DNA of 38,604 bases from an uncultured Bacteroidota bacterium (GTDB lineage Bacteria; Bacteroidota; Bacteroidia; JABEUT01): the NCBI GenBank assembly GCA_903916255.1, contig CAIWVW010000115.1:1-38604 (forward strand), given 5' to 3'. A model generated the notes under the pieces. The model saw only the letters and a program-made list of their open reading frames with translations, made no database searches and had not been told where the DNA came from. Numbering within the stretch: the stretch's first letter is position 1; every line of letters begins with the position of its first letter. The translations under genes were made by a program, and so were the position numbers. Positions 8,589 to 25,924 of this stretch are shown piece by piece.

Positions 8589-8592
8589 AACT

Positions 8593-8622: not shown

Positions 8623-8638
8623 AGGCTAATCCCGATGT

Positions 8639-10129: not shown

Positions 10130-10154
10130 GCGGTTTGTTTTTTTTATACACACC

Positions 10155-10184
10155 AATACGCTTAAAAATTAGGAATGGTTGGGT
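10155..10184 (-). promoter_or_regulatory. ECF-type promoter element of the first GloVer gene
   Basis: ACCCAACC (10184-10177), 16 bases, CGTATT (10160-10155) on the minus strand, ending 26 bases before the ATG at 10129. It lies in the 63-base gap between the two paralogues, so the second gene has its own promoter. Confidence 0.6.
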
Positions 10185-10192
10185 AAGAGGTT

Positions 10193-11620
10193 TTATTTCT
10201 GAATCACAAACTTTCCAGTCGAAGTAGCGTTTCCGTTTTCATCTAATATCCTATAAAGATAAAGGCCATTAGGCTGATTTAAAGAAACTGACAATGGATA
10301 ATTGGTAATGGACAATTGGGGAAATACTTTTTCTCCAAGCATATTATATATTTCAACTGACGACTGTCCACTGATTCCTGATAACTGAATGGTGAATTGG
10401 CCATTGTTGGGATTGGGGAAAACATCGGTATTAATAACATTGTATACTTCTTTAATAGCGTTTGCTTTGTCATTTATTTCTATCAGCTTCCCATATTCAG
10501 GGTAAGCACCATTAAGCATGTTAAAATCAACAAGTTTTGTGAAATTTCCTGATAGGGTGTATTGAAAGATAGTTCCCATGGAATTGTTGCCTCCCATATT
10601 GGTCATTCCATAAAGATTATTGTCACTAGCTTGTATTAATGTACCATAAGGCATTACTCCAGTACCATTATTAAATTTTAAAAGTGTATTAAGGTTTCCT
10701 GATAAAGTATACGAAAAAAGGGTGCCTTGATCAGAATCACCACCAGCCGAAGTAAGTCCATATAAATTACCATCGGAAGCTTGTATTAACGAACCATATG
10801 GAACTGCTCCATTTGTGTCATTAAAATCAACAAGTTTTGTGAATGTACCTGATGGCTTATATCTGAATAGTGTCCCATAACCGTATTTTCCACCAAAGGA
10901 AGTGAGTCCATAAAAATTACCATCATTTGCAAGGAGCAAATCTCCATATGGATTAATGCCGTCGATAGAATCAAAACTAAACACCGAAGTAAATTCTCCT
11001 GAAGGTGTACAATGAAAAATATTTCCTAAGCCGACCCCACTGTCAATTATTCCGCCGGCACTTGTCATTCCCCAAAGCATACTATCTTTTGTTTGAATTA
11101 AGCTGCCGTAGGGCATTGCCCCGTCTGTATCATTAAAAAAATGGACAGCAGTATAATGTCCCGAAAGTGGGAGTTTAAATAGCACCCCAATCAAATTTGG
11201 ACCACCTTGCGTTGTCATGCCATATAAAAAACCATCCATTGCTTGAATAAGACTATTCCCTAATGGGTCTGATGATCCCCAAACAGAATCCAGGTTTATC
11301 ATGGTTTTGAGAGTTCCAGTAGGACTGCATTGGAATATTGTGCAACTATCATCAAAACCTCCAGTTACAGAAGATGCATAAAAGTTACCATCGTTTGCGT
11401 ATAACAAACTCCCATCAGGTTGAGATGCTACTGAAGCCTTTAAACTGGCGATAGTTGTCAAAATTCCAGTAGGCGTAACAGAAAATACTGTACCTGCGTT
11501 ACTGTCTCCTCCACTGCTGGTTACTCCATATAAAACAACTTGAGCATTGGTCTTGTTTGAAAATAGTAATGAGACTATTATAAATAGGATAATTAGTAAA
11601 AAAGTAGATTTAGTTTTCAT
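10193..11620 (-). CDS. T9SS-exported GloVer-repeat protein (second paralogue)
   Basis: The 475-residue product has the same plan as its neighbour: a signal peptide (MKTKSTFLLIILFIIVSLLF, cleavage near NAQ), about seven GloVer-type repeats (YANDGNFYASSVTGG, MDGFLYGMTTQGG, NDGNFYGLTSFGG, SDGNLYGLTSAGG, SDNNLYGMTNMGG) and a T9SS type A tail ending GKFVIQK. The sorting domains share a 44-base stretch that is identical in DNA (8826-8869 and 10368-10411), while the repeats have diverged; this suggests duplication followed by gene conversion. It has both an ACCCAACC element and, further upstream, a normal TAnnTTTG box. Ligand and role are unknown; a surface location is predicted. Confidence 0.88.
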   Translation of the reverse strand: MKTKSTFLLIILFIIVSLLFSNKTNAQVVLYGVTSSGGDSNAGTVFSVTPTGILTTIASLKASVASQPDGSLLYANDGNFYASSVTGGFDDSCTIFQCSPTGTLKTMINLDSVWGSSDPLGNSLIQAMDGFLYGMTTQGGPNLIGVLFKLPLSGHYTAVHFFNDTDGAMPYGSLIQTKDSMLWGMTSAGGIIDSGVGLGNIFHCTPSGEFTSVFSFDSIDGINPYGDLLLANDGNFYGLTSFGGKYGYGTLFRYKPSGTFTKLVDFNDTNGAVPYGSLIQASDGNLYGLTSAGGDSDQGTLFSYTLSGNLNTLLKFNNGTGVMPYGTLIQASDNNLYGMTNMGGNNSMGTIFQYTLSGNFTKLVDFNMLNGAYPEYGKLIEINDKANAIKEVYNVINTDVFPNPNNGQFTIQLSGISGQSSVEIYNMLGEKVFPQLSITNYPLSVSLNQPNGLYLYRILDENGNATSTGKFVIQK

Positions 11621-12592: not shown

Positions 12593-15301
12593 ATGTCCGA
12601 TAAGTCCAATAAGGAGCCTGAAGATAAAAACGATGATACCCCCAATAATAATGGGTCTTCTTCTGTTATCCACCTCCAGCACATGTACCGTAACTGGTTT
12701 CTTGATTACGCTTCTTATGTAATATTGGAACGCGCCGTACCCGCGCTGGAAGATGGTCTGAAGCCTGTCCAAAGGCGCATATTCCACTCTATGAGGGAGT
12801 TGGAAGATGGACGCTATAATAAGGTGGCCAACGTAATTGGTAACACGATGAAGTATCACCCGCACGGGGATGCTTCCATTGGCGATGCTATGGTTCAGCT
12901 GGGGCAAAAGGAACTTGCGATTGATACCCAGGGTAACTGGGGTAACATCCTTACGGGCGATTCGGCAGCTGCACCCCGTTATATAGAAGCACGCCTTTCT
13001 AAGTTTGCCTTAGATGTTATTTTTAATGAAAAGACCACCGTTTGGCAAAACAGCTACGACGGACGGAATAAAGAACCTGTTTATCTTCCTGTAAAGTTTC
13101 CGCTGCTATTGGCCCAAGGTGCTGAAGGTATTGCAGTCGGCCTGGCTTGTAAAATACTTCCGCATAATTTCAATGAATTGATTGATGCCTCAATTGGGGT
13201 GTTAAAAGGCAAAAAACCGCATATTTATCCTGATTTCCCATCGGGTGGTATGGCTGACTTCTCCAACTACAACGATGGAATGAAGGGCGGCAAGGTGATT
13301 GTGCGTGCCAAAATCAACATCCTCGATAAAAAGACACTTGTAATAACTGAAATACCTTTTGGTTGCACTACATCTTCACTTATAGATTCTATCGTAACAG
13401 CCAATGAAAAAGGAAAGATAAAGATTAGGAATATTGAGGATAATACCGCCGAAAATGTGGAAATAGTTATCCATTTGCCCGCCGGATTCTCGCCTGATAA
13501 AACGATTGATGCACTTTATGCCTTTACTGATTGCGCTGTTTCTATTTCCCCGAATGCCTGCGTAATTGAGGGCGACAAGCCCCGGTTTATGGGGGTAGGG
13601 GAGATGCTGCGGGTTTCTGCGGAACGCACACAAGGCTTGCTTCAAAATGAACTGGATATCCGCATGGCGGAACTGACGGAGCAGTTCCATTATGTTTCGC
13701 TTGAGAAGATATTCATAGAAAAGCGCATTTACCGCGAAATTGAAGAAAGTGAAACCTGGGAGGATGTGCTTACCACCATTGAGGAAGGCTTAAAACCTTA
13801 CCGTAAAAAGTTACCAAGGGAAATTACCCGCGCCGATGTAATTAAACTGACCGAAATTAAAATCAAGCGGATTTCCAAGTACGATGCGTTTCAGGCGGAT
13901 GAATTGATGAAGCATATACAGGAAGAAATCAAGACCGTGAAGCATCATCAGGATAATATTGTTGACTACACTATTGATTATTTCAAAGAAATTAAGAAAA
14001 AATACGGTGCCGGAAAAGAGCGTAAAACGGAAATAAAAGCCTTCGATACTATTGTGGCTACTGCGGTTGCGGCCACCAATCAAAAATTATATGTAAATCG
14101 TGAAGAAGGTTTTGCCGGTTTCAAAATGCGTACCGATGAGTTTGTTTGCGACTGTTCCGACCTGGATGATATTATTGTAATGCGCCGCGATGGCACAATG
14201 CTCGTAACCAAAATATCGGAAAAAACATTTGTCGGGAAGGATGTGCTTTATATAAATGTGTTTAAGCGTAACGATGAGCGCACCATTTACAATTTGATTT
14301 ACCGTGATGGTGCCCGTGGCAACACCATGATTAAGCGTTTCGCGGTGACATCCGTAATTCGCGATAAAGATTATATGCTTACACGCGGCAACCCTAACTC
14401 GGAGGTTTTATATTTATCGGCAAACCCTAATGGCGAAGCGGAGGTGGTGACCGTTTTTCTGAAAGCAAATGCCACTGCACGTAACAAAGTATTTGACGCC
14501 GACTTTGCCGAACTGGCAATAAAGGGTAGGGATGCGATGGGGAATATTTTGACCAAGCATCCGGTACGCAAGGTAACCATAAAAGAAAAAGGCGTTTCAA
14601 CACTTACCGCCCAAAAAATTTGGTATGATGATACCGTTCAACGCTTGAATGCAGAGGAGCATGGCCGTTATTTAGGAGAATTTGAAGGCGATGATAAAAT
14701 TATGGTCATTACCAAAGATGGTAATTACCATACCTGCGGATTTGAATTTACCACCCACTTTGATGCAGATTCCGTATTGATTGAAAAACTTAATAAGGAA
14801 AAACCTTTATCGGTTGTTTATTGGGAAGCAGACAAGAAGAAATACTATATCAAGCGTTTCCTGCCGGAAGAATCGGAAAAGAAAACGCTGATTATATCTG
14901 AATATACAGGCTCATTATTGGAATCTGTTTCTTATGATGAGTTCCTTGTTGCTGAAATTAAGTTCCGTCAGGAGAAAGGGAAAGAATTACCGGATGAAAT
15001 TCTGAATGTAGCTTCCGATATACCTGTAATGGGAATGAAAGCCCAAGGCAAGCCCATTAACTTAAATAAGGTAAAGGAAATTCAGCTTAAGCCCGACCCA
15101 AACCAACCGGTAGGTGATTTGGTGGCCCTTGCAGCTATCGAAGAAAAGATGAATGATGAAATGGAAGAAAGCGGCAAATCACCTATTGAAATAGCCAAAG
15201 AACATAATAAAATCAAACTTCCTGAAGTGCTTCCTGAAAAGAAGCCATCCAAACCTCGCAAGCCAAGGCCCAAAGAGGATGACCAGCCGACGCTGTTCTA
15301 A
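12593..15301 (+). CDS. parC: DNA topoisomerase IV subunit A
   Basis: This is the DNA cleavage subunit of the decatenating type IIA topoisomerase. The 902-residue product has the N-terminal DYASYVILERAVPALEDGLKPVQRRI motif, [13 protein letters not shown] at 89-101, and the active-site tyrosine Tyr130 in SAAAPRYIEARL. The divergent C-terminal half lacks a canonical GyrA box, which fits ParC rather than GyrA and matches the long Bacteroidota form. The tail is Lys/Pro-rich (KKPSKPRKPRPKEDDQPTLF). The ParE subunit is not next to it; the upstream neighbour is a divergent cytochrome gene. The Ser80-equivalent position is Ala. A HepT/MntA pair follows after 26 bases on the same strand. Confidence 0.95.
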   Translation: MSDKSNKEPEDKNDDTPNNNGSSSVIHLQHMYRNWFLDYASYVILERAVPALEDGLKPVQRRIFHSMRELEDGRYNKVANVIGNTMKYHPHGDASIGDAMVQLGQKELAIDTQGNWGNILTGDSAAAPRYIEARLSKFALDVIFNEKTTVWQNSYDGRNKEPVYLPVKFPLLLAQGAEGIAVGLACKILPHNFNELIDASIGVLKGKKPHIYPDFPSGGMADFSNYNDGMKGGKVIVRAKINILDKKTLVITEIPFGCTTSSLIDSIVTANEKGKIKIRNIEDNTAENVEIVIHLPAGFSPDKTIDALYAFTDCAVSISPNACVIEGDKPRFMGVGEMLRVSAERTQGLLQNELDIRMAELTEQFHYVSLEKIFIEKRIYREIEESETWEDVLTTIEEGLKPYRKKLPREITRADVIKLTEIKIKRISKYDAFQADELMKHIQEEIKTVKHHQDNIVDYTIDYFKEIKKKYGAGKERKTEIKAFDTIVATAVAATNQKLYVNREEGFAGFKMRTDEFVCDCSDLDDIIVMRRDGTMLVTKISEKTFVGKDVLYINVFKRNDERTIYNLIYRDGARGNTMIKRFAVTSVIRDKDYMLTRGNPNSEVLYLSANPNGEAEVVTVFLKANATARNKVFDADFAELAIKGRDAMGNILTKHPVRKVTIKEKGVSTLTAQKIWYDDTVQRLNAEEHGRYLGEFEGDDKIMVITKDGNYHTCGFEFTTHFDADSVLIEKLNKEKPLSVVYWEADKKKYYIKRFLPEESEKKTLIISEYTGSLLESVSYDEFLVAEIKFRQEKGKELPDEILNVASDIPVMGMKAQGKPINLNKVKEIQLKPDPNQPVGDLVALAAIEEKMNDEMEESGKSPIEIAKEHNKIKLPEVLPEKKPSKPRKPRPKEDDQPTLF

Positions 15302-15327
15302 CTGACAAATAAAGATAAATTTACGAT

Positions 15328-15762
15328 ATGGAAAATGAAGATATACGTTGGAAACAAAGGTTTTCAAATTATTCAAAAGCATTTTTACAATTGGAGAAAT
15401 TTGTTAAAAAAGGAAAAGACCTTAATGAGATGGAAAAACAGGGTTTAATTCAAGCGTTTGAATATACTTTTGAATTATCATGGAATGTGATAAAGGACTA
15501 TTATGAATATCAAGCTGTAACTGAAATACAGGGAAGTCGCGATGCCTTTAGGCTGGCATTTAACAGGGGATTGATTAATGATGGCGAAAGTTGGATGAAA
15601 ATGATAGTTAGCAGAACAAAAACTACACATACGTATAATGAAGAAACAGCCGATGAAATAGCTACGGCGATAATAGGCAGTTATTTTTTTATGTTTAAAG
15701 AGTTATACCAAACAATGCTTAATATTTCAAAAGGACAAGGCGATTTATTTAAGAATCCATGA
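15328..15762 (+). CDS. hepT: HepT-like HEPN toxin (HI0074 family)
   Basis: The 144-residue helical protein belongs to the HEPN / nucleotidyltransferase-substrate-binding family (HI0074-like). It shows the toxin signature RX4HXY as RTKTTHTY in its C-terminal half; in studied HepT proteins Arg and His form the RNase site, and the Tyr is modified by MntA. It also has the family-typical stretch LIQAFEYTFELSWNVIKDY. The stop codon overlaps the start of the next gene by 4 bases (ATGA), a strong sign of a translationally coupled pair. It begins 26 bases after parC on the same strand, so it may be transcribed from the parC promoter. Confidence 0.85.
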   Translation: MENEDIRWKQRFSNYSKAFLQLEKFVKKGKDLNEMEKQGLIQAFEYTFELSWNVIKDYYEYQAVTEIQGSRDAFRLAFNRGLINDGESWMKMIVSRTKTTHTYNEETADEIATAIIGSYFFMFKELYQTMLNISKGQGDLFKNP

Positions 15763-16061
15763 AATTCGGTCTTAAAGAAGAGGTCATAGAAAACATGCAA
15801 AATGTCTTCAGTTCTTTTCCTGAAGTGGAACAGGTAGTAATTTATGGTTCTCGTGCAAAAGGAAATTATAAGGCGGGTTCAGATCTGGACATAACTGTGA
15901 AAGGAAATGACCTGAATCTCTCAAAACTAAATAATATAGTTTTGAAATTGGACGATTTGATGTTGCCTTACATAATAGACATCTCTTTGTATAATCAAAT
16001 AAATAACCCTGACTTAATTGACCATATTGACAGGGTTGGCATTATTTTTTACCAGAGATAA
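15759..16061 (+). CDS. mntA: MntA-like minimal nucleotidyltransferase antitoxin
   Basis: The 100-residue protein has the minimal nucleotidyltransferase motif GSX10DXD: GSRAKGNYKAGSDLD starts near residue 30, with the third acidic residue expected in the following strand (DDLMLPYIIDIS). In the known type VII HepT/MntA system, the MntA enzyme AMPylates the tyrosine of the HepT RX4HXY motif and so silences the toxin; both halves of that match are present here. The start ATG overlaps the HepT stop. The gene order toxin then antitoxin is usual for this family. Confidence 0.87.
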   Translation: MKFGLKEEVIENMQNVFSSFPEVEQVVIYGSRAKGNYKAGSDLDITVKGNDLNLSKLNNIVLKLDDLMLPYIIDISLYNQINNPDLIDHIDRVGIIFYQR

Positions 16062-16085
16062 CATCGAAGCCAAATAAACACAAAT

Positions 16086-16114
16086 AAAAAAGGAGAAACT
16101 TTCGTCTCTCCTTT
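16086..16114 (-). terminator. Rho-independent terminator of the rpsF-rpsR-rplI operon
   Basis: AAAGGAGA (16089-16096) and TCTCCTTT (16107-16114) form an 8-bp stem; read on the minus strand it is followed by a run of six T. It may also stop readthrough from the convergent mntA. Confidence 0.75.
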
Positions 16115-16166
16115 CTTTCTAAATTAATTTTCTTGATTTATTATATCCCTCTCGGAATATTTGGCC

Positions 16167-16203
16167 GTCGGCCTCCGACTATTTGCCAGTCGGGCATCCG
16201 ACT
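16167..16203. repeat. Two tandem GTCGG/CCGAC hairpins at the rplI 3' end
   Basis: GTCGG-CCT-CCGAC (16167-16179) and AGTCGG-GCAT-CCGACT (16188-16203) are two copies of a ~22-base unit that also share a following ACTATT. The second hairpin overlaps the rplI stop codon. The function is unknown; it could protect the mRNA 3' end or be a mobile hairpin repeat. Confidence 0.5.
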
Positions 16204-16648
16204 ATTCGGCGATTACTTCAAAGGTAACTTCAGCGGTAATGTCGCGGCTAAGTTTCACATTCGCTTTGTACGTGCCGGTAGATTTGATATGGTCAGCTTT
16301 CAGGTCAATGTTTTTACGGTCAATCTTGTAGCCTAATTTTTCAATAGCTTCAGCTAACTGGATAGCATTAACAGAACCAAAAATCTTACCGTTTTCTCCG
16401 GCTTTAGCTGCAATTTTAAGAACTGCATCTTTCAGTTTTGCCGCCAACACTTCAGCGTCTTTCTTAATCTTTTCTTCTTTGTGGGCGCGTTGCTTAATGA
16501 TTTCGCTCAACACTTTACGGTTCGAGGTTGTAGCGGCAATTGCCAATCCGCGTGGGATAAGGAAATTGCGGGCGTAACCCGGCTTCACTTTCACTAATTC
16601 GTATTGATTGCCGAGGTTTTCAACCTCTTTTTGCAGGATAACTTCCAT
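16202..16648 (-). CDS. rplI: 50S ribosomal protein L9
   Basis: This is a large-subunit ribosomal protein of 148 residues, the usual length. The N-terminal domain MEVILQKEVENLGNQYELVKVKPGYARNFLIPRGLA is the classic L9 signature, followed by the long connecting helix (NRKVLSEIIKQRAHKEEKIKKDAEVLAAKL) and the C-terminal rRNA-binding domain (GKIFGSVNAIQLAEAIEKLGYKIDRKNI). It is the last gene of the rpsF-rpsR-rplI operon. The 75-base gap upstream is filled with small AT-rich repeats. Confidence 0.97.
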   Translation of the reverse strand: MEVILQKEVENLGNQYELVKVKPGYARNFLIPRGLAIAATTSNRKVLSEIIKQRAHKEEKIKKDAEVLAAKLKDAVLKIAAKAGENGKIFGSVNAIQLAEAIEKLGYKIDRKNIDLKADHIKSTGTYKANVKLSRDITAEVTFEVIAE

Positions 16649-16651
16649 TTT

Positions 16652-16727
16652 GAGTTATGAGTTATGAATTATGAGTTATGAATGAATGTTCGTAATTCCT
16701 AATTCCTAATTATTAATTGCTAATTAC
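16652..16727. repeat. Small tandem repeats between rpsR and rplI
   Basis: The spacer consists of GAGTTATGA / GAATTATGA units (16652-16687) followed by TAATTCC / TAATTA units (16693-16727, just running into the rpsR 3' end). The first family recurs, inverted, at 12493-12550. They separate two otherwise tightly linked ribosomal genes. Confidence 0.5.
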
Positions 16728-16993
16728 TTTAAAAGGTCGCCTACGAAAGGAAGCAACGCCATGTGGCGGGCTCTCTTAACGGCTTGTGCTACTTTCCTCT
16801 GGTATTTTGAAGAGGTTCCTGTAATACGAACAGGCAATAATTTGCCCTGGTCATTTACAAAGTTCTTCAAAAAGTCCGGGTTTTTGTAGTCAATATACTT
16901 AATGCCGTATTTGCGGAAGCGGCAATATTTGTTCTTTTTAACCTCAATTGGGGGAGGTGTAAGGTAACGTACTTCGTTTGTTTCTGCTGCCAT
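16724..16993 (-). CDS. rpsR: 30S ribosomal protein S18
   Basis: This is an 89-residue small-subunit protein with the S18 core [56 protein letters not shown]. It pairs with S6 on the ribosome. It starts 5 bases after the rpsF stop, so the two are co-translated. The order rpsF-rpsR-rplI without priB/ssb in between is normal for Bacteroidota. Confidence 0.97.
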
Positions 16994-16998
16994 GGTTT

Positions 16999-17367
16999 TT
17001 AAATTGCTGGTTCTTTTTTAGGTTCTTTTTTTCCGAATCTTTCCTTGCGTTTCTCCAGATATGCCAGGGCATGCTTGTCTAAGGTAACTGTTAAATAGCG
17101 TAAAATGCGTTCATCACGCTGATAAGCTATTTCAAGTTCTTTTACAATCGTAGTTGGGGCATTAAACTGGAGTACGTGGTAAAAGCCCGTACTCTTCTTC
17201 TGGATAGGGTATGCTAATTTGCGCAAACCCCAATGCTCCTCATTGGTTATCTTACCTTCATGTTCCTTAATGAGCTTGCGATAGTTGTCAACTGCCTCTT
17301 TTGCTTGCTCTTCCGAAAGCACCGGAGTTAAGATAAAAATAGTCTCGTAAGACTTGGTTATTGTCAT
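16999..17367 (-). CDS. rpsF: 30S ribosomal protein S6
   Basis: The 122-residue product has the S6 pattern: [50 protein letters not shown], and [29 protein letters not shown]. The C-terminus is a short basic tail. It is first in the rpsF-rpsR-rplI operon, behind a clear TAnnTTTG box at 17387-17394. Confidence 0.97.
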
Positions 17368-17386
17368 GTTTTTTTAAAATGGGCTG

Positions 17387-17394
17387 CAAAGGTA
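17387..17394 (-). promoter_or_regulatory. -7 box of the rpsF operon promoter
   Basis: TACCTTTG on the minus strand matches TAnnTTTG and lies 20 bases before the rpsF ATG (17367). Confidence 0.6.
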
Positions 17395-17596
17395 GTAAAT
17401 TTTCTTTTTGAACACCTATTGCATAAAAAAAATATGATTTTATTGTTTTCACCCCTTTTCCGTTGGTATCTAAAAAGAAACCAGGTATCCTTTTTTCAAA
17501 ATTTATGTTAAAGTTTTTGATATTCTGCCGAAACGTGCCAAATATTACCCTTTCGGTTCAGAAAAATGCCTATCTTTCCACACTTTTAAAAACTAA

Positions 17597-18679
17597 ATGG
17601 CATTTATAGATATTCTTATAGAGCCTCCATCATATGGCTGGCAGGATGAAAAAGGCGAACTGATTAAGCCTACCAAGAGTCAACTTATTAAAGAGGCCTT
17701 ACGCAGGATGAATATCTTTAAATCCCGCAAAAATTTTTTAGGCTTCTTTGGCTGGTTTGAAGTGCTTTGCCTGATTCCGTTTTTTGTAATCTTCTTTGTG
17801 AAGTTCTTTTCTATCCCTCTGCTTATTGCAGGCTTTGTGTATGGTATGGTTTGCATGGGTACGCATGGCACAATATGGTATCACCGCTATTCTACCCACA
17901 GGGCGTTTACCTTTAAAAACAAATTCTGGATGTTTATTACCCGTAACCTCGTTATTAAGGTGGTGCCGGAAGAAACCTATGTGGTATCGCACCATGTACA
18001 CCATAGCAAAAGTGATATGCCTGGAGACCCTTATAATGCCCATGCAGGTTTCCTGTATTGTTTTTTGGCGGATACCAACCACCAGCAAATTTCACAATCT
18101 TTAAGCCGTGAAGATTACCCCCGTGTAGCTGCCCTATTAAAAGATACAGGCGTTGTTCCTAATACTTATGAGCAATACCTTTATTGGGGTTCTATCGCTA
18201 ATCCAATCAGGGTGGTTTTTGAACATTATATTAATTGGGCCTTTTGGTTTGGCGTGTTTTACCTTATTGGCGGATTCGGCCTCGCTTTTGCCTGCTTTGC
18301 AGGAGCGGCCGTTTGGGCCGTTGGCATACGTACCTTTAACTTTGAAGGCCATGGTAAAGGAAAAGACAAACGCACCAAAGGCACCGATTTCGATTGGGAT
18401 GATATGAGTATTAACCAACGCTGGCCGGGCTATGTAGCCGGAGAATGGCACAACAACCACCACCTTTACCCAAACAGTGCCCAATCGGGCTTTTTACCTC
18501 ACCAGGTAGATTTGGCTTGGGTGTATGTATGGATATTAAGCAAAATAGGTGGCGTTAGTGCCTACAATAATGCCAAAAAAGACTTCGTAGAGAAGTATTA
18601 CAAGCCCTACAAAGAACAACTACAGCAGGAAAAAACGGCTGAAAAGGTTGTGAAGAAAGAGGAAGCGAAGGTGGCGTAA
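17597..18679 (+). CDS. Membrane-bound acyl-CoA desaturase
   Basis: The 360-residue integral-membrane, di-iron enzyme puts a double bond into fatty acyl chains and so adjusts membrane fluidity. All three histidine boxes of the stearoyl-CoA-desaturase type are present: HRYSTH (96-101), HHVHH (132-136) and HNNHH (285-289). Hydrophobic stretches lie at about 50-88 and 212-245. The tail is Lys/Glu-rich (QEKTAEKVVKKEEAKVA). The last 55 bases of the gene are duplicated 1369 bp downstream (19994-20048), with two differences, both silent. A near-consensus box TATCTTTC at 17571-17578 is a possible promoter. The electron donor gene is not adjacent. Confidence 0.92.
   Translation: MAFIDILIEPPSYGWQDEKGELIKPTKSQLIKEALRRMNIFKSRKNFLGFFGWFEVLCLIPFFVIFFVKFFSIPLLIAGFVYGMVCMGTHGTIWYHRYSTHRAFTFKNKFWMFITRNLVIKVVPEETYVVSHHVHHSKSDMPGDPYNAHAGFLYCFLADTNHQQISQSLSREDYPRVAALLKDTGVVPNTYEQYLYWGSIANPIRVVFEHYINWAFWFGVFYLIGGFGLAFACFAGAAVWAVGIRTFNFEGHGKGKDKRTKGTDFDWDDMSINQRWPGYVAGEWHNNHHLYPNSAQSGFLPHQVDLAWVYVWILSKIGGVSAYNNAKKDFVEKYYKPYKEQLQQEKTAEKVVKKEEAKVA
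18625..18679 (+). repeat. Direct repeat, copy 1 (desaturase 3' end)
   Basis: These 55 bases match 19994-20048 at 53 positions, in the same orientation. This copy is the functional gene end. The repeat pair brackets the lipoprotein gene and its flanks. Confidence 0.9.
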
Positions 18680-18766
18680 TAAGTGCATATTTAATACTTC
18701 CTGCTTATACCATTGTCATCAAAAGATTAGAAATTAATCAGTTATTGCTTGACCTGATTGAGTGCG

Positions 18767-19849
18767 TTACAAATTAGTCCATGTTGAGCCATTGTAAACA
18801 GCTACACCATCGGAACTGAAATAGCCACAAACAGCAAGGTTGCCATTATAAATAGTCATTGCATATACGGTGGGATAATCAGTTGGATTGGTATTTCCTA
18901 TTAAAGTAAATGAGCCCAAACTGCTCCAGGCAGAGCCATTCCATGACTGAATATTCGAACCATTTGTAGCTAAAAGGTTGCCTCCATAAACTATAACTGA
19001 ACTTCCCACTGAAGGCACACCTATAGTGTATATCGAATTATTAATAGTAGACCATTGATTACCATTCCACTCAATAATGGTACTGTTAGCTCGCAGAACC
19101 AAATTACCATTCCAAACCACGCCTCCACCGTTTTCCCCATAATTCATAATGTCTCCATAATCTGAAAGTCGTACTGTATCCCAAACAGTCCCGTTCCATT
19201 GTGCAAGATTAGAAAGCTGGAAAGTTCCTGCAGAGTCAAATAACCCTGTTGCAATTAAGTTTCCGTTATAGTTGAGTAAAGTGCCACAAGATGCCGAGTA
19301 CGCACCAAAACCATTACCTAATGGAGTCCATGTTATCCCATTCCATTGGGCAATACTGTTGACATGTATACCGTTTATCGAATCAAAATATCCGCCGGCA
19401 ATTAAATTTCCATTATATATGTCAAGGCAAGAAACATTGCCATTACTTGCTGATTCAATACCCTTATTGCCAATTATTGACCAGCTTGTGCCATTCCATT
19501 GGGCAATGCCATTTACTTTGACACCACCGATATTTTCAAATCCTCCCACTGCAATAAGATTTCCATTATAAACTATTAAAGCATATATTGATCCTCCACC
19601 TTGTATGCCTGTTCCCACTGATGACCAAGTACTGCCATTCCATTGCATAATACCGGAATTGAAAGTACCACCATTCCCACTTTGTCCGCCAACAACAAGA
19701 TTTCCATTATAGGTAGTAATTGCATATTGAACAGGTGTTACAGTAGCAGTTTGAGTTGTTTTATTAGCCGCAGGTGTAGTAGAATCCGATTTATGACAAG
19801 ATTCAAGTGAAACGGAGGCAATTATGATAGCAAAAATAAATTTCTTCAT
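18767..19849 (-). CDS. Lipoprotein with seven NGNL...W-NG repeats
   Basis: The 360-residue product starts with a lipoprotein signal (MKKFIFAIIIASVSLESC, lipidated Cys18), then a Thr/Ala-rich linker. About seven repeats follow, built on YNGNLI.GG.F......N.IAQWNG..W...G (e.g. NGNLIAGGYFDSINGIHVNSIAQWNG), as expected for a beta-propeller. It has no T9SS tail, so it is probably anchored in a membrane by lipid. Function unknown. The gene sits between two copies of the desaturase 3' end, pointing to arrival as a cassette. It has a TATATTTG box at 19874-19881 and no ACCCAAC element, unlike the T9SS genes around it. Confidence 0.8.
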   Translation of the reverse strand: MKKFIFAIIIASVSLESCHKSDSTTPAANKTTQTATVTPVQYAITTYNGNLVVGGQSGNGGTFNSGIMQWNGSTWSSVGTGIQGGGSIYALIVYNGNLIAVGGFENIGGVKVNGIAQWNGTSWSIIGNKGIESASNGNVSCLDIYNGNLIAGGYFDSINGIHVNSIAQWNGITWTPLGNGFGAYSASCGTLLNYNGNLIATGLFDSAGTFQLSNLAQWNGTVWDTVRLSDYGDIMNYGENGGGVVWNGNLVLRANSTIIEWNGNQWSTINNSIYTIGVPSVGSSVIVYGGNLLATNGSNIQSWNGSAWSSLGSFTLIGNTNPTDYPTVYAMTIYNGNLAVCGYFSSDGVAVYNGSTWTNL

Positions 19850-19873
19850 TACTTTTTATATTTAATCGATATG

Positions 19874-19881
19874 CAAATATA
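19874..19881 (-). promoter_or_regulatory. -7 box of the lipoprotein gene
   Basis: TATATTTG on the minus strand matches TAnnTTTG and lies 25 bases before the start codon at 19849. Confidence 0.5.
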
Positions 19882-19993
19882 GCAATTATTTTATTTGTTA
19901 CATCACTTACTAATAATCAATAACTGGTATTTAAAACCATAGCACTTATATGGTAAATTTAGGGGTTTAAATATCCATTCGAGATAACCTAAT

Positions 19994-20048
19994 GCAAGAA
20001 AAAACGGCTGAAAAGGTAGTGAAGAAAGAGGAAGCGAAGGTGGCGTAA
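19994..20048 (+). pseudogene. Direct repeat, copy 2: stranded desaturase 3' end
   Basis: These bases match the last 55 of the desaturase gene, including the stop, with two changes (G to A and T to A at equivalent sites). Both changes are silent: the encoded QEKTAEKVVKKEEAKVA is unchanged. An ATG happens to precede it (19992). The rest of the gene is missing here. It is best read as a gene-end remnant or as the junction of an insertion. Confidence 0.85.
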
Positions 20049-20063
20049 ATACTAAGTTCCAAT

Positions 20064-21503
20064 TTATCGCCCAACTTCAACTTTCTTCATAAGGTTACTA
20101 CCGTCAGACATTTGTATTTTCAAAAAGTACACTCCTGCGGGCAGTTCTCCGGAAGATACTTCAATAGTTTGAACTTCTTCTATTTGCTGTTCAAATACTA
20201 ACCGCCCTGTTACATTATAAAGTATCAGTTTTTTTGCATTTGAAGAAGTAGGAATCTGGACGAAGAATGAATTGTTTGCCGGGTTAGGGTAAACAAGTAT
20301 TTTTTCAGTTTCACTAATGTAATTTATTCCTTCGTTCGCGCAGTTACTAAGATTATTTGAATAAGAATAATTAGTAATAAAGGTAGGCATCCCTTCATCT
20401 CCAGCTTTCCCACCAAGAAATACAGCAGTGTCATGAATTCTACAGGTTGCCCCATAGTTGTTTGGGGTGTCTATAGCTAATAAGTATCCTGAATTACTTA
20501 AACTAACCATATATATTTTTCCGTTTGGGCCTATTTGTAACCCCCTTAAAGTTGATAGGGTTGTTTCTTGGTACACTGTTGTCATTGATGTGTTAATAGT
20601 GGTTTGATTTCCGCTGCTTATATCGTATTCGACAATACCCATGCCGAAAGGGGAAATGGCTCCATAACTTGCGTATAGTTTTGAGTTGTCAGGCGAAAAT
20701 TCTACACCGTAAACGTCAGCATCACTAGGCGCTACAAGCGAAATAAAATTAGAAACGACACCGGTCCTCTTGTCAAAGTCATATAGCCCAAATTGATTGG
20801 GTTGAACAAAAGCCTGGCTGGCGGCAATTGCTAATTTTTTTCCGTTTGGTGAAACTTTTAACTGTCCTTGGGCACCCGTATCAATATATCCGATATGCGT
20901 TATTACGGTATCACTAATCCCTGTAGGTGTAAGCAGATAGGAATAGAATGCATCTGTATTTAGTTTGTGGGTTATTATCCAATAATCCACTCCGTTTGAA
21001 TCTCGCACTGCAGCAACCTTCTCATCTGTACTGTCAATAAGAAGAATATTTTTCTTACCGATAATAACATCACCTAAACCACTGTCAAGGCACATGTCGA
21101 CAATCGAGTAACGGAATCCATATTTTTCGTTGTCCTCCCAAAAATCATCCACTGTAAAAATGTAAAAAAATCTGCTGCTGCCGGGTAAAGGAACAATGAC
21201 CGATGATTGAGTTGAGGAAAAATTTCCTAACAAACTATCTCCGTTAGGCATCACATTCCCATTTTTATTCCAGAGTTTCTGCCCGTTTGAATAGAATAAA
21301 ATATTTCCAGAGCTGTCGGAAATTGCAGAGCTACCTTCATTATACGATCCGGTTGGAAAATATGTTGCTCCATTTGTCAATGCAGATGGAGTCGGGGTGT
21401 TAAAGTCTACTCCGGCATGATTGCCGAAATACCAAATATTCCCTTGTTTCTGCCCCAAACAAATCATTGGAAACAAAAGAGTGATTAAAAGTATTTTTTT
21501 CAT
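20064..21503 (-). CDS. T9SS-exported propeller-like surface protein
   Basis: The 479-residue product has a signal peptide (MKKILLITLLFPMICLGQ). The body begins QGNIWYFGNHAGVDFNT, a common opening of Bacteroidota surface proteins. It contains WD40/YVTN-like pieces (GQLKVSPNGKKLAIA, YGVEFSPDNSKLYASYG, GLQIGPNGKIYMV). A T9SS type A domain covers about residues 405-479 (VYPNPANNSFFVQI, LYNVTGRLVFEQQ, LPAGVYFLKI, KKVEVGR). It is predicted to be exposed on or released from the cell surface; ligand unknown. Its only recognisable promoter is the ECF-type element at 21530-21559. Confidence 0.88.
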   Translation of the reverse strand: MKKILLITLLFPMICLGQKQGNIWYFGNHAGVDFNTPTPSALTNGATYFPTGSYNEGSSAISDSSGNILFYSNGQKLWNKNGNVMPNGDSLLGNFSSTQSSVIVPLPGSSRFFYIFTVDDFWEDNEKYGFRYSIVDMCLDSGLGDVIIGKKNILLIDSTDEKVAAVRDSNGVDYWIITHKLNTDAFYSYLLTPTGISDTVITHIGYIDTGAQGQLKVSPNGKKLAIAASQAFVQPNQFGLYDFDKRTGVVSNFISLVAPSDADVYGVEFSPDNSKLYASYGAISPFGMGIVEYDISSGNQTTINTSMTTVYQETTLSTLRGLQIGPNGKIYMVSLSNSGYLLAIDTPNNYGATCRIHDTAVFLGGKAGDEGMPTFITNYSYSNNLSNCANEGINYISETEKILVYPNPANNSFFVQIPTSSNAKKLILYNVTGRLVFEQQIEEVQTIEVSSGELPAGVYFLKIQMSDGSNLMKKVEVGR

Positions 21504-21529
21504 GATATTAGAAAATCTGAATTACCACA

Positions 21530-21559
21530 ATTACGTTGAAAATTGATAAAAGGTTGGGT
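21530..21559 (-). promoter_or_regulatory. ECF-type promoter element of the T9SS gene
   Basis: ACCCAACC (21559-21552), 16 bases, CGTAAT (21535-21530) on the minus strand, ending 27 bases before the ATG at 21503. Confidence 0.6.
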
Positions 21560-21650
21560 CCAACGTTGATCTTTTTGGGAAGGCATAATAAAACACAGCA
21601 AATCTAAATTTATTCCCTTTTATTGAGTCTTCTTATGTTTTCATTCCCCA

Positions 21651-21687
21651 CCTTCTCATAACCCATCAACACATTCCCATTCTTAAA
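21651..21687 (-). pseudogene. Remnant of a DHFR-like gene 3' end
   Basis: These 37 bases match the end of the neighbouring reductase gene (21847-21883) at 35 positions, in the same orientation and 196 bp away. Translated on the minus strand they give KNGNVLMGYEKV in place of KNGNVLMCYEKV, so the remnant may come from a related allele or paralogue. No upstream part of the gene remains next to it. Confidence 0.65.
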
Positions 21688-21702
21688 TGATATTGGGGTA
21701 TT

Positions 21703-21808
21703 AAATCCCGTAGGGATAACCTTTTGGTAGAAACGAAATACGAAAAGAATTTAATAAATCCCGTAGGGATGACCTTATAATATTGTGAAAAGGCCGTCCC
21801 GCCGGGAC
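21703..21808. repeat. REP-like AATCCCGTAGGGAT repeats
   Basis: Two copies of AATCCCGTAGGGAT(A/G)ACCTT lie at about 21703-21722 and 21757-21776, the first followed by TTGGTAGAAA. A related palindrome GTCCCGCCGGGAC comes just after. From memory, similar TCCCGTAGGGATGA repeats are widespread between genes in Bacteroidota genomes. They fill the gap between the two DHFR 3' ends. Confidence 0.55.
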
Positions 21809-21841
21809 TTTATAATCTGTGCAATCTGTGGCAGGGTTGTA

Positions 21842-22396
21842 TTAAACCTTCTCATAACACATCAACACATTCCCGTTCTTAAACTCCCTTGTGCTTTTTA
21901 GTCTCAATTTTAAATTGTGTTTCATATCTTTGAATAGGGGAGTACCCTCTGCCAATACAAGCGGGTTAACTAAAAGCTGGTATTCATCAATTAAATTGTG
22001 GTCGGCCAACTGGTTTATAACATTCCCGCTGCCGAGTATGCACATATCATTGCCGGGCATTTGTTTAAGTTTTTTCATTTCATGAATCATGTCACCTTTT
22101 ATCAGCGTGGTGTTATGCCAATCCACTTTCTGCAAGGTGTTAGAAAATACAATCTTCTCGGCTTTGTTCATGCCCTCGGCTACTTTTGGAAGAGCTTTAA
22201 TAAGTGCTTCTGACGTCCAAGATTTTTCCATCATCTGATAGGTTACCCGCCCGAATACTAGGGTTCCGCCACCTTTCAGGTTCTCTTCCGAAAACCGGGC
22301 GCCTTCTTCATCGTGGTTATGCCAACTTAGGTCTTCATTGGCGCCTTTGTAAAATCCGTTTAAAGAAACAAAATTGAAACAAGTTAGTTTTCTCAT
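21842..22396 (-). CDS. Dihydrofolate reductase-family protein (RibD C-terminal-like)
   Basis: The 184-residue cytoplasmic protein is predicted to bind NADPH. Features of the YwjB/YyaP-type RibD_C family: the start RKLTCFNFVSLNGFY, GGGTLVFGRVTYQMM, the AEKIVFSNTL strand, CILGSGNVINQLADHNLIDEYQLLVNPLVLAEGTPLF, and the C-terminal KNGNVLMCYEKV. These enzymes are related to DHFR and riboflavin-pathway reductases, but most members have no known substrate. A damaged copy of the gene's 3' end lies 196 bp downstream. A 29-bp inverted repeat starts 15 bases upstream of its start codon. No clear promoter box was seen. Confidence 0.87.
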   Translation of the reverse strand: MRKLTCFNFVSLNGFYKGANEDLSWHNHDEEGARFSEENLKGGGTLVFGRVTYQMMEKSWTSEALIKALPKVAEGMNKAEKIVFSNTLQKVDWHNTTLIKGDMIHEMKKLKQMPGNDMCILGSGNVINQLADHNLIDEYQLLVNPLVLAEGTPLFKDMKHNLKLRLKSTREFKNGNVLMCYEKV

Positions 22397-22410
22397 AGTA
22401 GATAAATTTG

Positions 22411-22503
22411 GAACGCGGATGAAGCAGATTGCTTATGATTCACAGGATTATAAAAGCATATAAAGTCTTAATGTATCATAAGCAACCTGCGTCATCCGCG
22501 TTC
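22411..22503. repeat. Large inverted repeat, 29-bp arms
   Basis: The left arm (22411-22439, beginning GAACGCGGATGA) and right arm (22475-22503, ending TCATCCGCGTTC) are inverted copies matching at 27 of 29 positions, with a 35-base AT-rich loop. It fills nearly the whole gap between the DHFR-like and TMEM175-like genes. There is no T-run beside it, so it is not a standard terminator. It may be a MITE- or REP-type element. Confidence 0.8.
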
Positions 22504-22511
22504 TATTGTAT

Positions 22512-23093
22512 TTATTCATCCTCCATCGCCTTTTCCACATGCTTATCGGGCATAAACCACATAATGGAGACAAGCAAAAACAATACCTCCGAAATATATG
22601 GGTTCACAAAGGCCAGCGGTATTGCGGAACTGTAAATTGCAATAGATATATAACCCTTGTTAGCCATACGTTTCATAGCATTTTGCATTTGCGTACTCCA
22701 GGGGTTATTTTTCTCAATAGCGCTTCTAAGTATATTCCAGAAAAAGCCCGGTATAAGCAGAAGTACAGCATAGGCTGCCACTGCCTGTGGTGCAAAATCA
22801 CATGAGGCTACCCAGCCGGTAATAAAGGGTATGAGCGAAAGCCAGAACAACAGGCCTAAATTGGCAACCATAATTTTACCGTTTACTTTTTTAGCAGTAT
22901 GCACCAAATGGTGGTGGTTGCTCCAATATACACCTACAAATAAAAAACTTTGGGTGTAACATAGAAAGGCGGGTAAAACTGAAAGCAAATCACTGATTGT
23001 TCCGCCATGCGGAGCTTTCAGGTCCAGTATCATTATGGTCATGATGATGGCAAACATGCCATCGCTAAAGGCTTCAAGACGGCTTTTGTTCAT
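22512..23093 (-). CDS. TMEM175-family potassium channel-like protein
   Basis: The 193-residue integral-membrane protein has the family signature RLEAFSDGMFAIIMTIMILDL in its first helix (the RxxxFSDGxFAI motif lining the pore in TMEM175) and the typical GVYWSNHHHLVH segment. About six hydrophobic helices can be traced. Bacterial members form tetrameric potassium-permeable channels in the inner membrane. The open frame extends 39 codons upstream, but those residues cross the terminator of the preceding gene and lack family character, so I start at MNKSRLEAF. Confidence 0.85.
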   Translation of the reverse strand: MNKSRLEAFSDGMFAIIMTIMILDLKAPHGGTISDLLSVLPAFLCYTQSFLFVGVYWSNHHHLVHTAKKVNGKIMVANLGLLFWLSLIPFITGWVASCDFAPQAVAAYAVLLLIPGFFWNILRSAIEKNNPWSTQMQNAMKRMANKGYISIAIYSSAIPLAFVNPYISEVLFLLVSIMWFMPDKHVEKAMEDE

Positions 23094-23100
23094 AAGGGGT

Positions 23101-23131
23101 AAAAAAATAGTCCTCCGTTTCGGGAGGACTA
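23101..23131 (-). terminator. Rho-independent terminator after the cupredoxin gene
   Basis: A perfect 9-bp stem (TAGTCCTCC, 23108-23116, with GGAGGACTA, 23123-23131) and a 6-base loop are followed on the minus strand by seven T. The hairpin lies between the cupredoxin stop and the TMEM175-like start, so the latter needs its own promoter or readthrough. Confidence 0.88.
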
Positions 23132-23166
23132 AAGTAATAACAAAATTTGATTTTAATAAATGAAGC

Positions 23167-23763
23167 CTATTGTACTTCCAGTTTGCCTTTTGTAGATAAT
23201 GTACCTGCATTTACCTGATAGAAATAGATGCCCTTTGTCCATTCTGAAACATCTATCATATTATCGACGGCATTTAATATTTTTCTGAAAACAACTCTGC
23301 CCTCAATGTCAGTTATGGTTAACATATTGGTTGGGGCACAGGTATTCAAATGAAAATTAACATGGTTGCTGGCCGGATTAGGAAATACGGATGCAAGGCT
23401 GGTGAAACTTTCTACATAAGGAACCGCTGTGGCCGTAACATTAATAGTACCTTCCATAGAAGTTGTATGGATGGCACACCAGTAATTATACGTACCGGGT
23501 GTTGTAATCAAATAGTCGAACTTAGTAGCGCTGCTTGTCATATTTGCATTCCATGAGGCCGCCCCCCCGGGAATGGTTAAGGATGTTGTTGTATGGGTTC
23601 CGGATACCCACTGCCATTCTACTGTGTCTCCTACTGTGGCTGAAAAACTGGAAGGGGAAAAACTGAAATTCTGGACAGTAACAATATGTTTTGTTGCATT
23701 CGCAAACGAGAAAACAGATAATCCTGCTAAAAGCAGAACGGTTTTTGTAATTGATTTTTTCAT
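23167..23763 (-). CDS. T9SS-exported cupredoxin (plastocyanin-like)
   Basis: The 198-residue product has a signal peptide (to about residue 23, SFANAT). A blue-copper domain (about 25-110) shows a complete ligand set: His57 in SGTHTTT, Cys96 and His99 in YWCAIH, and Met103 in TSMEG. It is therefore expected to bind one copper and pass electrons outside the cytoplasm. Residues ~127-198 are a T9SS type A domain (VFPNPASNHVNFHL, ITDIEGRVVFRKIL, WTKGIYFYQV, GKLEVQ), which would place this redox protein on the cell surface. Upstream is an ACCCAACT-N16-ATCTAA element; downstream a strong terminator makes it monocistronic. Confidence 0.9.
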   Translation of the reverse strand: MKKSITKTVLLLAGLSVFSFANATKHIVTVQNFSFSPSSFSATVGDTVEWQWVSGTHTTTSLTIPGGAASWNANMTSSATKFDYLITTPGTYNYWCAIHTTSMEGTINVTATAVPYVESFTSLASVFPNPASNHVNFHLNTCAPTNMLTITDIEGRVVFRKILNAVDNMIDVSEWTKGIYFYQVNAGTLSTKGKLEVQ

Positions 23764-23802
23764 GGGTTAGATTTTTTTAGTTAATAATTCGCATTACATC
23801 AT

Positions 23803-23832
23803 TTAGATGCAACCATTTTAATAAAGTTGGGT
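23803..23832 (-). promoter_or_regulatory. ECF-type promoter element of the cupredoxin gene
   Basis: ACCCAACT (23832-23825), 16 bases, ATCTAA (23808-23803) on the minus strand, ending 40 bases before the ATG. It differs from the others at the eighth base of the first box. Its second box matches that of the sigma gene rather than the CGTAAT class. Confidence 0.5.
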
Positions 23833-23844
23833 ACGAAGTTAAAT

Positions 23845-25368
23845 TTATTTAAAACAATAGGTGACCCCAATATTCAACCCTGCTAAATAAGGATAAGTAA
23901 CTACCGGAGTGTTTTTATTAATGGTAGTTAGCGAACCTTGCAAAGCCGGTTCCGCATAAATGCCGACTTGTTTGCAAATGTTGTATGAGATACCTAATCC
24001 GAGGGTATAAGAATAATACATGCTTTGCAAACCCTCGATGGTATTTACGGTTGAAGTGCCCTGATAATTCCATGAATCTTTCCAATTCATTACAGTTTCT
24101 GTGCTGGTTGAAATATTTATTCCTATTCCGCCGGTTATAAACATGCTAATCTTGTCTGTTTTCACGGCAAAATATTTTAGCTTGACAGGAATGCTCAGGT
24201 AAGCTCTGGTGGATGTAGCCGACATTTTAAGGCTATCTCCAATTGAAACAGCGTATCCATAATAAGGGCAGTTAACTACTCCTGAACTGGAAACAATGGA
24301 ATACCCAATTTGTCCATTATCTTCCTGTTGTGCGTATATGTATGTAGGTCCAATCCGGAAGGAATAATATTGGTAAGACAATCCGACAGCTACAGAAAGG
24401 TGCTTGTTCAGTTCATATTCTACAGTTCCCCCGGCCGAATAAGCGGACTGCACTTTTTCGTTTGTTTTTATTTGGTTTTCATAATAGCTGCCAGTATTAC
24501 CGCTGCTTTTATAATTATATCCTGTTACCAAATCGGGCGAAAAATATGCCCACAGGCTAAACCTGGAAGAACCCTGTAAAGTATCTGCCATTACTACCTT
24601 TTTAGCAGAATCGGGTTGGATAATTGCTTGTGCAGGATTTGTTTTTGGTGGATTGGACACAATGCTTGCAGCCTCAGATTTTGTATCTATAGAAGATGTG
24701 TTTTGATTTGCCGGTTTTAATTCCGGAACAATTGGGTTATTATTTACAGGGTCTGCAGTAATAGTTTTAGTTTGGTGCAAATTGTCTGTAACTGTTTCTT
24801 TTTCAATTTTAGAATTGGCAGGTACAGGTGTATTTGTTATTTGCTCCAATTCAGAGGGTTTCGATTTCTTACGAACCTTTTTTAATGCTATTTGGGTAGG
24901 TGCAATTCCTGTAATTGACGGTTGTTGTTTGTTGGAAACCTTATTTTTAATGGCTGTTTGGGTATGATTGTTATGGGTTGATATGGGTTGCTTAATTGTT
25001 TTTTTGTTTTCGGTAGTTGCCAGGCCAGTACCATTTGCAATTACAGGCTTGTCGGTGTTTTTGTATGCTGTAACCGGAATTGCCGAATTGTTTATAATGT
25101 TATTTTTTGCTGCCACAATTTTCGAATCTGTTTTCTCATTGCTGCTTTGCATTTTAATGGTAAAAAACCCCAATATTAACAAGCCTGCGCCCAGCAAAAG
25201 AGCCAATGCCCTCCACCTTGCCGTGTTTCTGCTGCCGGCAATTTTCCCGTTCCTGATGATACCTTCCGCCGATTTGCGCCAAAACTCATCTGAAGGCTCA
25301 GTATTCAAAGGCTCTATGCCTTTCCGGAAAATTTCATCGATGTTATTCCCCGTTTGCTTTTCGCTCAT
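23845..25368 (-). CDS. Putative dual membrane-spanning anti-sigma factor
   Basis: Three parts are visible in the 507-residue product. Residues 1-52 form a charged, presumably cytoplasmic segment (IDEIFRKGIEPLNTEPSDEFWRKS). Residues ~53-71 are one transmembrane helix (RALALLLGAGLLILGFFTI). Residues ~72-265 are an Asn/Thr/Lys/Pro-rich, low-complexity linker long enough to cross the periplasm. Residues ~266-507 are an outer-membrane beta-barrel (SLWAYFSPDLVTGYNY, HLSVAVGLSYQYYSF, YLSIPVKLKYFAV, ending GLNIGVTYCFK). The gene overlaps the ECF sigma gene by 26 bases. A single chain linking cytoplasm, inner membrane and outer membrane fits the dual membrane-spanning anti-sigma (Dma) type known from Bacteroides. 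Sigma binding is inferred from linkage and layout. Confidence 0.75.
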   Translation of the reverse strand: MSEKQTGNNIDEIFRKGIEPLNTEPSDEFWRKSAEGIIRNGKIAGSRNTARWRALALLLGAGLLILGFFTIKMQSSNEKTDSKIVAAKNNIINNSAIPVTAYKNTDKPVIANGTGLATTENKKTIKQPISTHNNHTQTAIKNKVSNKQQPSITGIAPTQIALKKVRKKSKPSELEQITNTPVPANSKIEKETVTDNLHQTKTITADPVNNNPIVPELKPANQNTSSIDTKSEAASIVSNPPKTNPAQAIIQPDSAKKVVMADTLQGSSRFSLWAYFSPDLVTGYNYKSSGNTGSYYENQIKTNEKVQSAYSAGGTVEYELNKHLSVAVGLSYQYYSFRIGPTYIYAQQEDNGQIGYSIVSSSGVVNCPYYGYAVSIGDSLKMSATSTRAYLSIPVKLKYFAVKTDKISMFITGGIGINISTSTETVMNWKDSWNYQGTSTVNTIEGLQSMYYSYTLGLGISYNICKQVGIYAEPALQGSLTTINKNTPVVTYPYLAGLNIGVTYCFK

Positions 25369-25924
25369 TATATATTAATTTTTCTTCTATTAGTAAGTTT
25401 TTGTAAATCTTTTTCTTTAGCAAGTTCCTTGCGTCTGAAAGGTTCGATTTGGACGTGCCTTCTACGATACCAAGTTCTGCGGCAATATCTTTATGCCCCA
25501 TACCTTCAAATACAAAAAGGTTGAAAACCATTTTATACATAGGCGGAAGCTCCTGTATCATTTTAAGTAATTCCTTCGAATCGATAAGGTTTAATATGTC
25601 TTCATCGCTAACGAAACGGTCTTCCACGTTGTCGATATCAAGCACCGGGTATATTTTATTGGCTTTTCTAAGGTGCTCCAGCGATTTGTTTACGATAATT
25701 TTCCGTATCCACCCTTCAAAAGAGCCTTGCATCCGGAATTGAGCCATTTTTTCAAATACTATAATTAAGCCCTCCTGAAGCACATCTTCGGCCTCTTCCC
25801 GGCTGCGGGCATAACGCATGCATACCGTAAGCATTTTAGCCGCATACCGGGTATACAGCAGTTGCTGAAATGCCGGAATACCTTTTAAACAGCCTTTGAT
25901 TAGTTGTTCTTCTGAAATCTCCAA
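25343..25924 (-). CDS. ECF-type RNA polymerase sigma factor
   Basis: The 193-residue sigma-70 factor of the ECF group contains only regions 2 and 4. Region 2 is RYARSREEAEDVLQEGLIIVFEKMAQF...GWIRKIIVNKSLEHLRK. Region 4 is LPPMYKMVFNLFVFEGMGHKDIAAELGIVEGTSKSNLSDARNLLKKKI, with the helix-turn-helix that reads the -35 box. The start codon is TTG: EISEEQLIKGCLKG matches the usual family start, no in-frame ATG lies between the upstream stop and residue 31, and a promoter element ends 22 bases upstream. It overlaps the anti-sigma-like gene, so the two are coupled. The ACCCAACC-N16-ATCTAT element in front suggests self-activation. Confidence 0.92.
   Translation of the reverse strand: MEISEEQLIKGCLKGIPAFQQLLYTRYAAKMLTVCMRYARSREEAEDVLQEGLIIVFEKMAQFRMQGSFEGWIRKIIVNKSLEHLRKANKIYPVLDIDNVEDRFVSDEDILNLIDSKELLKMIQELPPMYKMVFNLFVFEGMGHKDIAAELGIVEGTSKSNLSDARNLLKKKIYKNLLIEEKLIYNERKANGE

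Follow-up and report, generated by a model that had tools for sequence, protein, structure and literature searches.

How a single lipoprotein gene, with no mobility function beside it, came to stand between two copies of the end of a fatty acid desaturase gene is the question raised by this locus, which lies in the window, that is, the whole stretch of 38,604 nucleotides that was analysed (Table 1). Base-by-base comparison confirmed the preliminary description in that the 3′-terminal 55 bp of the desaturase gene recur at an offset of 1369 bp with 53 of 55 positions identical, and that both differences fall at third codon positions and are silent in the desaturase frame. The probability that a pair of random changes hits third positions only is 1/9, so these silent differences alone are weak evidence. 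To the right, the repeat goes no further than the stop codon of the desaturase, which forms its exact edge, and in the repeat listing of the window the pair appears as family D14 (67 nt, 90%, offset 1369). When 80-nt gene-end queries were compared with the DNA downstream, the desaturase pair scored 51.6, while with reverse-complemented downstream DNA a score of at least 22 was reached at most once in 759 genes of the own genome and once in 592 genes of the related genome G002; the repeat is thus not due to chance. A search of the locus against the whole own genome detected no third copy of the desaturase end.

Table 1. Features of the desaturase locus in the window, and further host genes with a duplicated 3′ end in the own genome and in G002.
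Feature	Position in window	Strand	Remark
Fatty acid desaturase (host gene, 360 aa)	17597-18679	+	ORF; Pfam PF00487, E 3.3e-11
Copy 1, last 55 bp of desaturase, up to the stop codon	18625-18679	+
Inserted cassette between the desaturase copies, 1314 bp	18680-19993		Such DNA absent after desaturase in G002, G003 and G007
Lipoprotein gene, predicted kelch-like beta-propeller	18767-19849	-	No other sizeable gene in the cassette
Copy 2, orphan desaturase 3′ end including the stop codon	19994-20048	+
Resident T9SS-sorted secreted protein beyond copy 2	20064-21503	-	Pfam PF18962
Orphan RibD_C 3′ end, 38 nt, 95%	21650-21687	-
Gene-less insert between the RibD_C end copies	21688-21845		Repeats with core CCCGTAGGGAT
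RibD_C-domain reductase, second host gene in the window with a duplicated 3′ end	21842-22396	-	Copy 1 at 21846-21883
TMEM175, convergent neighbour	22512-23210	-
FNR-type reductase, own genome			Cassette: antitoxin-like ORF and ParE toxin (Pfam PF05016)
aroC, own genome			Cassette: DUF6036 nucleotidyltransferase and small partner gene
L057, own genome			Weak, old case
ftsY, G002			Cassette: PIN-domain VapC-like toxin (PF01850) and small antitoxin-like ORF
Carbonic anhydrase, G002			Cassette: T9SS propeller protein belonging to the family of the window lipoprotein; repeat 67/67 bp identical
YggS, G002			Cassette: unknown lipoprotein-like gene

The product of the cassette gene has a lipoprotein-like N-terminus and a weak NCBIfam match below the cut-off. 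It is a member of a large repeat family present in all 11 genus genomes searched, but no orthologue was found among these 11, the best relative being 50% identical. Its AlphaFold2 model (mean pLDDT 76.7, pTM 0.80, 13-row alignment) consists of repeated four-stranded units, the top Foldseek matches in the PDB were kelch propellers, and the protein models as a kelch-like beta-propeller. Apart from the lipoprotein ORF, the ORF list of the cassette holds nothing of note, and neither an integrase nor a transposase is among its entries.

The same locus was then compared in relatives. The desaturase query had a match in 10 of 40 genomes searched (own included), and clear orthologues, 66–89% identical, were obtained from seven relatives; the comparison is one between species, with one genome per species and relatives at most 89% identical in the desaturase. 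In all seven the desaturase end is single-copy within the stretches examined (L011-L017). The desaturase of G003 overlaps the convergent TMEM175 gene by 4 bp (L013, 11580-12170 and 12167-13255), about 4.3 kb of other genes separate the two in G007, and the flank differs again in G002, where the contig stops 490 bp past the desaturase; in both G002 and G007 a single desaturase end is followed by other DNA without the lipoprotein gene. In the window, the interval contains the lipoprotein, T9SS and RibD_C reductase genes. With G003 empty and differing content in G007, G002 and the window, the desaturase–TMEM175 interval, which is bounded by conserved convergent genes, is a variable site. The T9SS gene beyond copy 2 had no match at the desaturase locus of those relatives with flank sequence (blastn of 15000-25500). 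These results support the proposal that a lipoprotein-bearing cassette entered at the desaturase 3′ end and doubled that end, and the expected empty site, with one copy and no lipoprotein gene, was found in G003, G007 and G002, that is, in other species of the genus and not in conspecific strains.

Some further repeats of the window were recorded. An inverted repeat lies between RibD_C and TMEM175 (22411-22503), its two 32-nt arms being 91% complementary and separated by 29 nt. Positions 8639-10156 and 10193-11620 encode tandem paralogous secreted-type proteins with stretches 88–91% identical, and about 29 tandem copies of a unit of about 225 bp (60–73% alike) fill 30800-38604 up to the contig end, apparently as part of a giant adhesin-type repeat protein.

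For gene ends duplicated in this manner, stretches from the own genome (0.986 Mb) and from G002 (0.742 Mb) were surveyed, together 1.73 Mb from two species. An orphan copy of the last 32–69 bp was found downstream of 8 of the 1351 genes that had enough downstream DNA, versus none of 974 control genes (533 from outgroup stretches, 103 from other genus members and 338 from E. coli K-12). The difference (Fisher p = 0.024) is descriptive, as the cut-offs were picked while viewing the data, and it would be weaker without L057; with only 103 genes, the genus controls cannot separate a genus-wide from a two-species pattern. The eight host genes remained from 12 downstream rows in the two species after four had been removed by hand, two as long repeat proteins (2489-2869 of the reversed window, and L060), one as a dispersed palindromic family (L054) and one as a short palindromic repeat (L130); among the controls, one E. 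coli row, a tRNA-Arg array, was removed. L057 was counted though weak (score 17.2), while L135, a toxin–antitoxin (TA) cassette with a 55-nt repeat (89%), was left uncounted because its host ORF has just 79 aa and may be no gene. The preliminary description had suggested looking for the same 3′ end beside other cassettes; what was found is the same type of scar at other genes, yet each host supplies its own sequence.

At the FNR-type reductase, the gene abuts its convergent neighbour, presumably a pyruvate dehydrogenase subunit, in G007, is separated from it by about 11 bp in G004, and is followed by a different gene in G002, while the TA cassette, the orphan end and one further gene are present in the own genome. 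The aroC–ftsY interval holds a cassette with a duplicated aroC end in one species and, in the other, a cassette with a duplicated ftsY end (L127, G002:C80:115001-135000, 9567-11103; L085, 13453-15435), so this convergent pair was hit twice, independently and once from either side. In G001, the C-terminal 126 residues of FtsY (L231, G001:C35) are 91% identical to those of G002, the AroC and YggS of that genome being 75% and 68% identical to their queries, possibly as the result of a recent gene transfer. The YggS gene of the own genome (L211, G000:C106:3-554) is cut by the contig end at about residue 184, near the position where an end repeat, if any, would be expected.

Other repeats were seen as well. 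In L085, a 124-bp repeat (7914-8725; 97%; copies at 7914 and 8602, the copy lying upstream) surrounds a small ORF (8383-8586), which we take to be HicA-like, with no clear host gene, and it was not counted since a doubtful ORF of 106 aa is involved. Dispersed palindromic or short repeat families also occur at gene ends (L054, 6654-8305; L089; L130, 13851-13996) and are unrelated to the scars.

The scars are alike in anatomy. Each counted orphan end is found downstream of its own gene and in the same orientation; the two-species survey revealed no orphan copy in front of a credible gene and nothing convincing of the kind at 5′ ends. The inner edge of the repeat falls between -9 and +4 bp from the stop in 8 of 8 host genes (desaturase 0, FNR 0, RibD_C -4, aroC -9, ftsY about -1, carbonic anhydrase +4, YggS -6, L057 -3). 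On the other side, where the cassette is on the same strand, copy 2 starts 0–11 bp past the stop of the cassette gene in 6 of 6 cases, the uncounted L135 included (FNR at most 8, ftsY 2, YggS 2, carbonic anhydrase 11, L057 0, L135 9 bp). Further, at five host genes (desaturase, FNR, aroC, ftsY and YggS) copy 2 is separated from the conserved neighbour by an extra gene.

Part of this anatomy agrees with insertion with long target duplication, known from H. pylori (Nobusato et al., 2000, as relayed in passages of PMC1643837, PMC3031569 and PMC4978471), provided that selection keeps those insertions that spare the host gene. Its products would be the same, a gene unit between long direct repeats of the target, and inserts between long direct repeats that are single-copy in uninserted relatives are what we found; the discrete cassette ends would suit a self-contained moving unit, and the carbonic anhydrase repeat of G002 is perfect over 67 bp. 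As those passages present it, the H. pylori system also resembles the present one in that a small selfish-type unit without a recombinase gene sits between long direct repeats of the target, the cargo being restriction-modification there and TA pairs in several cases here. However, a randomly chosen target should often extend the duplication past the stop, while all eight edges cluster around it, with a chance of roughly 5e-5 (seven cases; a value that depends on the assumed uniform distribution over 70 bp). Going by the same passages, the present scars also differ from those of H. pylori in that the duplicated piece is always a gene 3′ end of 32–69 bp ending at the stop, and in that surface lipoproteins and T9SS proteins are among the cargo. 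We regard long target duplication as rather unlikely.

The position of the repeats could also point to Campbell-type or site-specific integration, in which a circle carrying the cassette and a gene end is inserted by a recombinase acting from elsewhere, in the way that phages and islands use gene 3′ ends. Classically, such integration restores the gene and leaves its 3′ end as a direct repeat on either side of the insert, and all counted orphan copies are downstream of the gene. On the other hand, no recombinase is encoded in any cassette, those of the other surveyed host genes included, and the eight unrelated end sequences offer no common site: neither a motif shared by the eight ends nor an attC-like common site was visible by eye. 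A dedicated integrase was set aside, as the cassettes lack a recombinase. Integration of this kind is very unlikely, and the idea of a site-specific island at the desaturase, put forward initially, is unsupported, given a cassette without integrase or transposase and a different sequence at every host gene.

The differences between the copies were used to ask which end is old. Pooled over the host genes, 17 of 23 fall at third codon positions. With relatives used for polarisation in five genes (one relative for YggS, desaturase and RibD_C, two for aroC, three for FNR), trimmed stretches gave 22 differences, of which 8 were unassignable; copy 1 has 5 changes, 5 of 5 at third positions, and copy 2 has 9 changes, only 4 of 9 at third positions. 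For the desaturase, one of the two differences could be assigned, to copy 2. Because the changes in copy 2 are not rich in third positions, while those in copy 1 all fall there, the orphan would be the old end that is no longer maintained. In agreement, the YggS orphan of G002 ends in IFNE*, as the G007 orthologue does, while the working copy ends in IFA*, and this shared tail marks the orphan as the old end; the ftsY and FNR orphans likewise hold synonymous bases that are common to relatives and missing from the working copies. The second copy thus looks mostly like a decaying relic that changes as non-coding DNA does, and the working end would be either newly brought or silently evolved since. 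The initial reading of the silent differences, that the second copy is an allele and not a product of random decay, is weakened: the pooled share of third positions agrees with it, but the polarised changes of copy 2 do not, and copy 2 as a working foreign allele was rejected on the same count.

The flanking DNA was also compared with relatives by shuffling. No relative matched the copy-2 flanks of desaturase, FNR, aroC and FtsY at p < 0.05, the desaturase flank against G003 giving p 0.056, and at YggS the flanks of the two copies gave matches of equal quality (p about 0.03 in each case).

Decay of the second copy is also expected if the host gene and cassette were duplicated in tandem and the second copy was then eroded to a short stub, and 4 of 9 third-position changes suit such an origin. 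However, the stubs always retain the extreme 3′ end, 32–69 bp of it, even in the carbonic anhydrase case, where the duplication must be recent because the repeat is perfect, and no stub longer than 70 bp was found at a credible gene end in the survey, paralogues and other repeats aside. We give this explanation little credence. An assembly or binning artefact might be suspected, since the genomes are drafts of many contigs and the window is one whole contig of 149, but there are silent and other changes between the copies, two separately assembled species share the anatomy, and coherent genes flank the insert; such an artefact is extremely improbable.

We consider that the cassettes were stacked by one-sided or aberrant homologous recombination with the DNA of a close relative, a course to which we assign about an even chance and which is best read as a variant of known processes. 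In detail, a cassette comprising the whole lipoprotein gene and the region upstream of it would have been added right behind the desaturase stop. The incoming DNA would have carried a relative's desaturase end followed by the cassette, and homologous pairing would have taken place on the desaturase side, while the far end of the cassette would have been joined to the desaturase end already present in the recipient, some 55 bp ahead of its stop, without replacement of the resident genes. The outcome would be the order working gene end, new cassette, displaced old end and old resident genes. Both ends with their exact edges, the vacant sites of relatives and the recurrence at other genes and cassettes are observed facts; the foreign origin of the cassette, the homologous pairing on one side, and which end is the newcomer are inferences.

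This course would explain the inner edge, which is sharp because the homology of donor and recipient stops at the stop of the gene and the downstream DNA differs, and also the orphan end and the stacking, which would arise if the far end was joined to the gene end of the recipient and the interval was not exchanged. The extra gene beyond copy 2 in five cases fits a new cassette stacked before an old one. Members of the ComEC and DprA families occur in the own genome, as they do in E. coli and many others searched, and their presence is only permissive for recombination with incoming DNA. Passages of PMC3784515 deal with transformation and merodiploids. No donor strain with the desaturase and lipoprotein but no repeat was found among the genomes, one per species. 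The polarised changes, 5 in copy 1 and 9 in copy 2, fit plain duplication equally well. When the junctions were checked for homology-facilitated illegitimate recombination, the edges fitted, while the polarised differences of the five genes held no clear donor variants.

The far junction is the less easily explained one. Lying 0–11 bp past the cassette stop in all six same-strand cases, it is too precise for a random illegitimate join, and this precise far end is the main reason for keeping a more novel reading open. The genus may have an unrecognised recombinase-less or trans-acting system that adds precise-ended gene units (TA pairs, nucleotidyltransferase pairs and surface propeller proteins) behind the stops of housekeeping genes and re-creates their last 30–70 bp, stacking the units as integrons do with gene ends as attachment points; we hold this to be quite unlikely. 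Integron cassettes are compact single-gene units that end just past the stop and are stacked before older ones. The present cassettes are similar in being compact units that end behind a stop, the newer before the older, but they come without an integrase or an attC-like common site, and the repeated sequence is that of the host gene.

Among known processes, homology-facilitated illegitimate recombination with C-terminal displacement comes close. As set out in parts of PMC5361080 for the T6SS effector–immunity arrays of Vibrio cholerae, with Rhs loci cited there, a new 3′ module enters a gene, the old end is pushed downstream and the array grows by stacking, as is proposed here. By that account, the new 3′ end in V. 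cholerae is a different toxin domain, whereas in the present cases a housekeeping gene is the host and the peptides encoded by its two ends are nearly the same. The minimal mobile element of Neisseria, exchanged by homologous recombination in its flanks, is similar in placing differing whole-gene cassettes between the same conserved genes (passages of PMC3898611), and the desaturase–TMEM175 interval behaves likewise, though between species, being empty in G003, with about 4.3 kb in G007 and three genes here. Those passages of PMC3898611 describe no duplicated gene end; the orphan end sets the present loci apart, and they do not conform to exchange by homologous recombination alone. Word searches of the literature, judged on titles and abstract openings, yielded no description of gene-end duplication around cassettes.

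How single genes without mobility functions, such as TA pairs, small defence-like genes and surface lipoproteins, enter chromosomes is a long-standing question. The scars are a readable record of such entries, as they show where the insertion took place, in which order additions were made and which end was displaced, and their frequency, 8 of 1351 genes in two species, is enough for counting and testing in strain collections. Should the precision of the ends be borne out, random illegitimate joining would not suffice, and some further mechanism would have to be invoked. The recurring scars suggest that in these uncultured Bacteroidota small genes are stacked behind housekeeping genes via an uncommon route of recombination.
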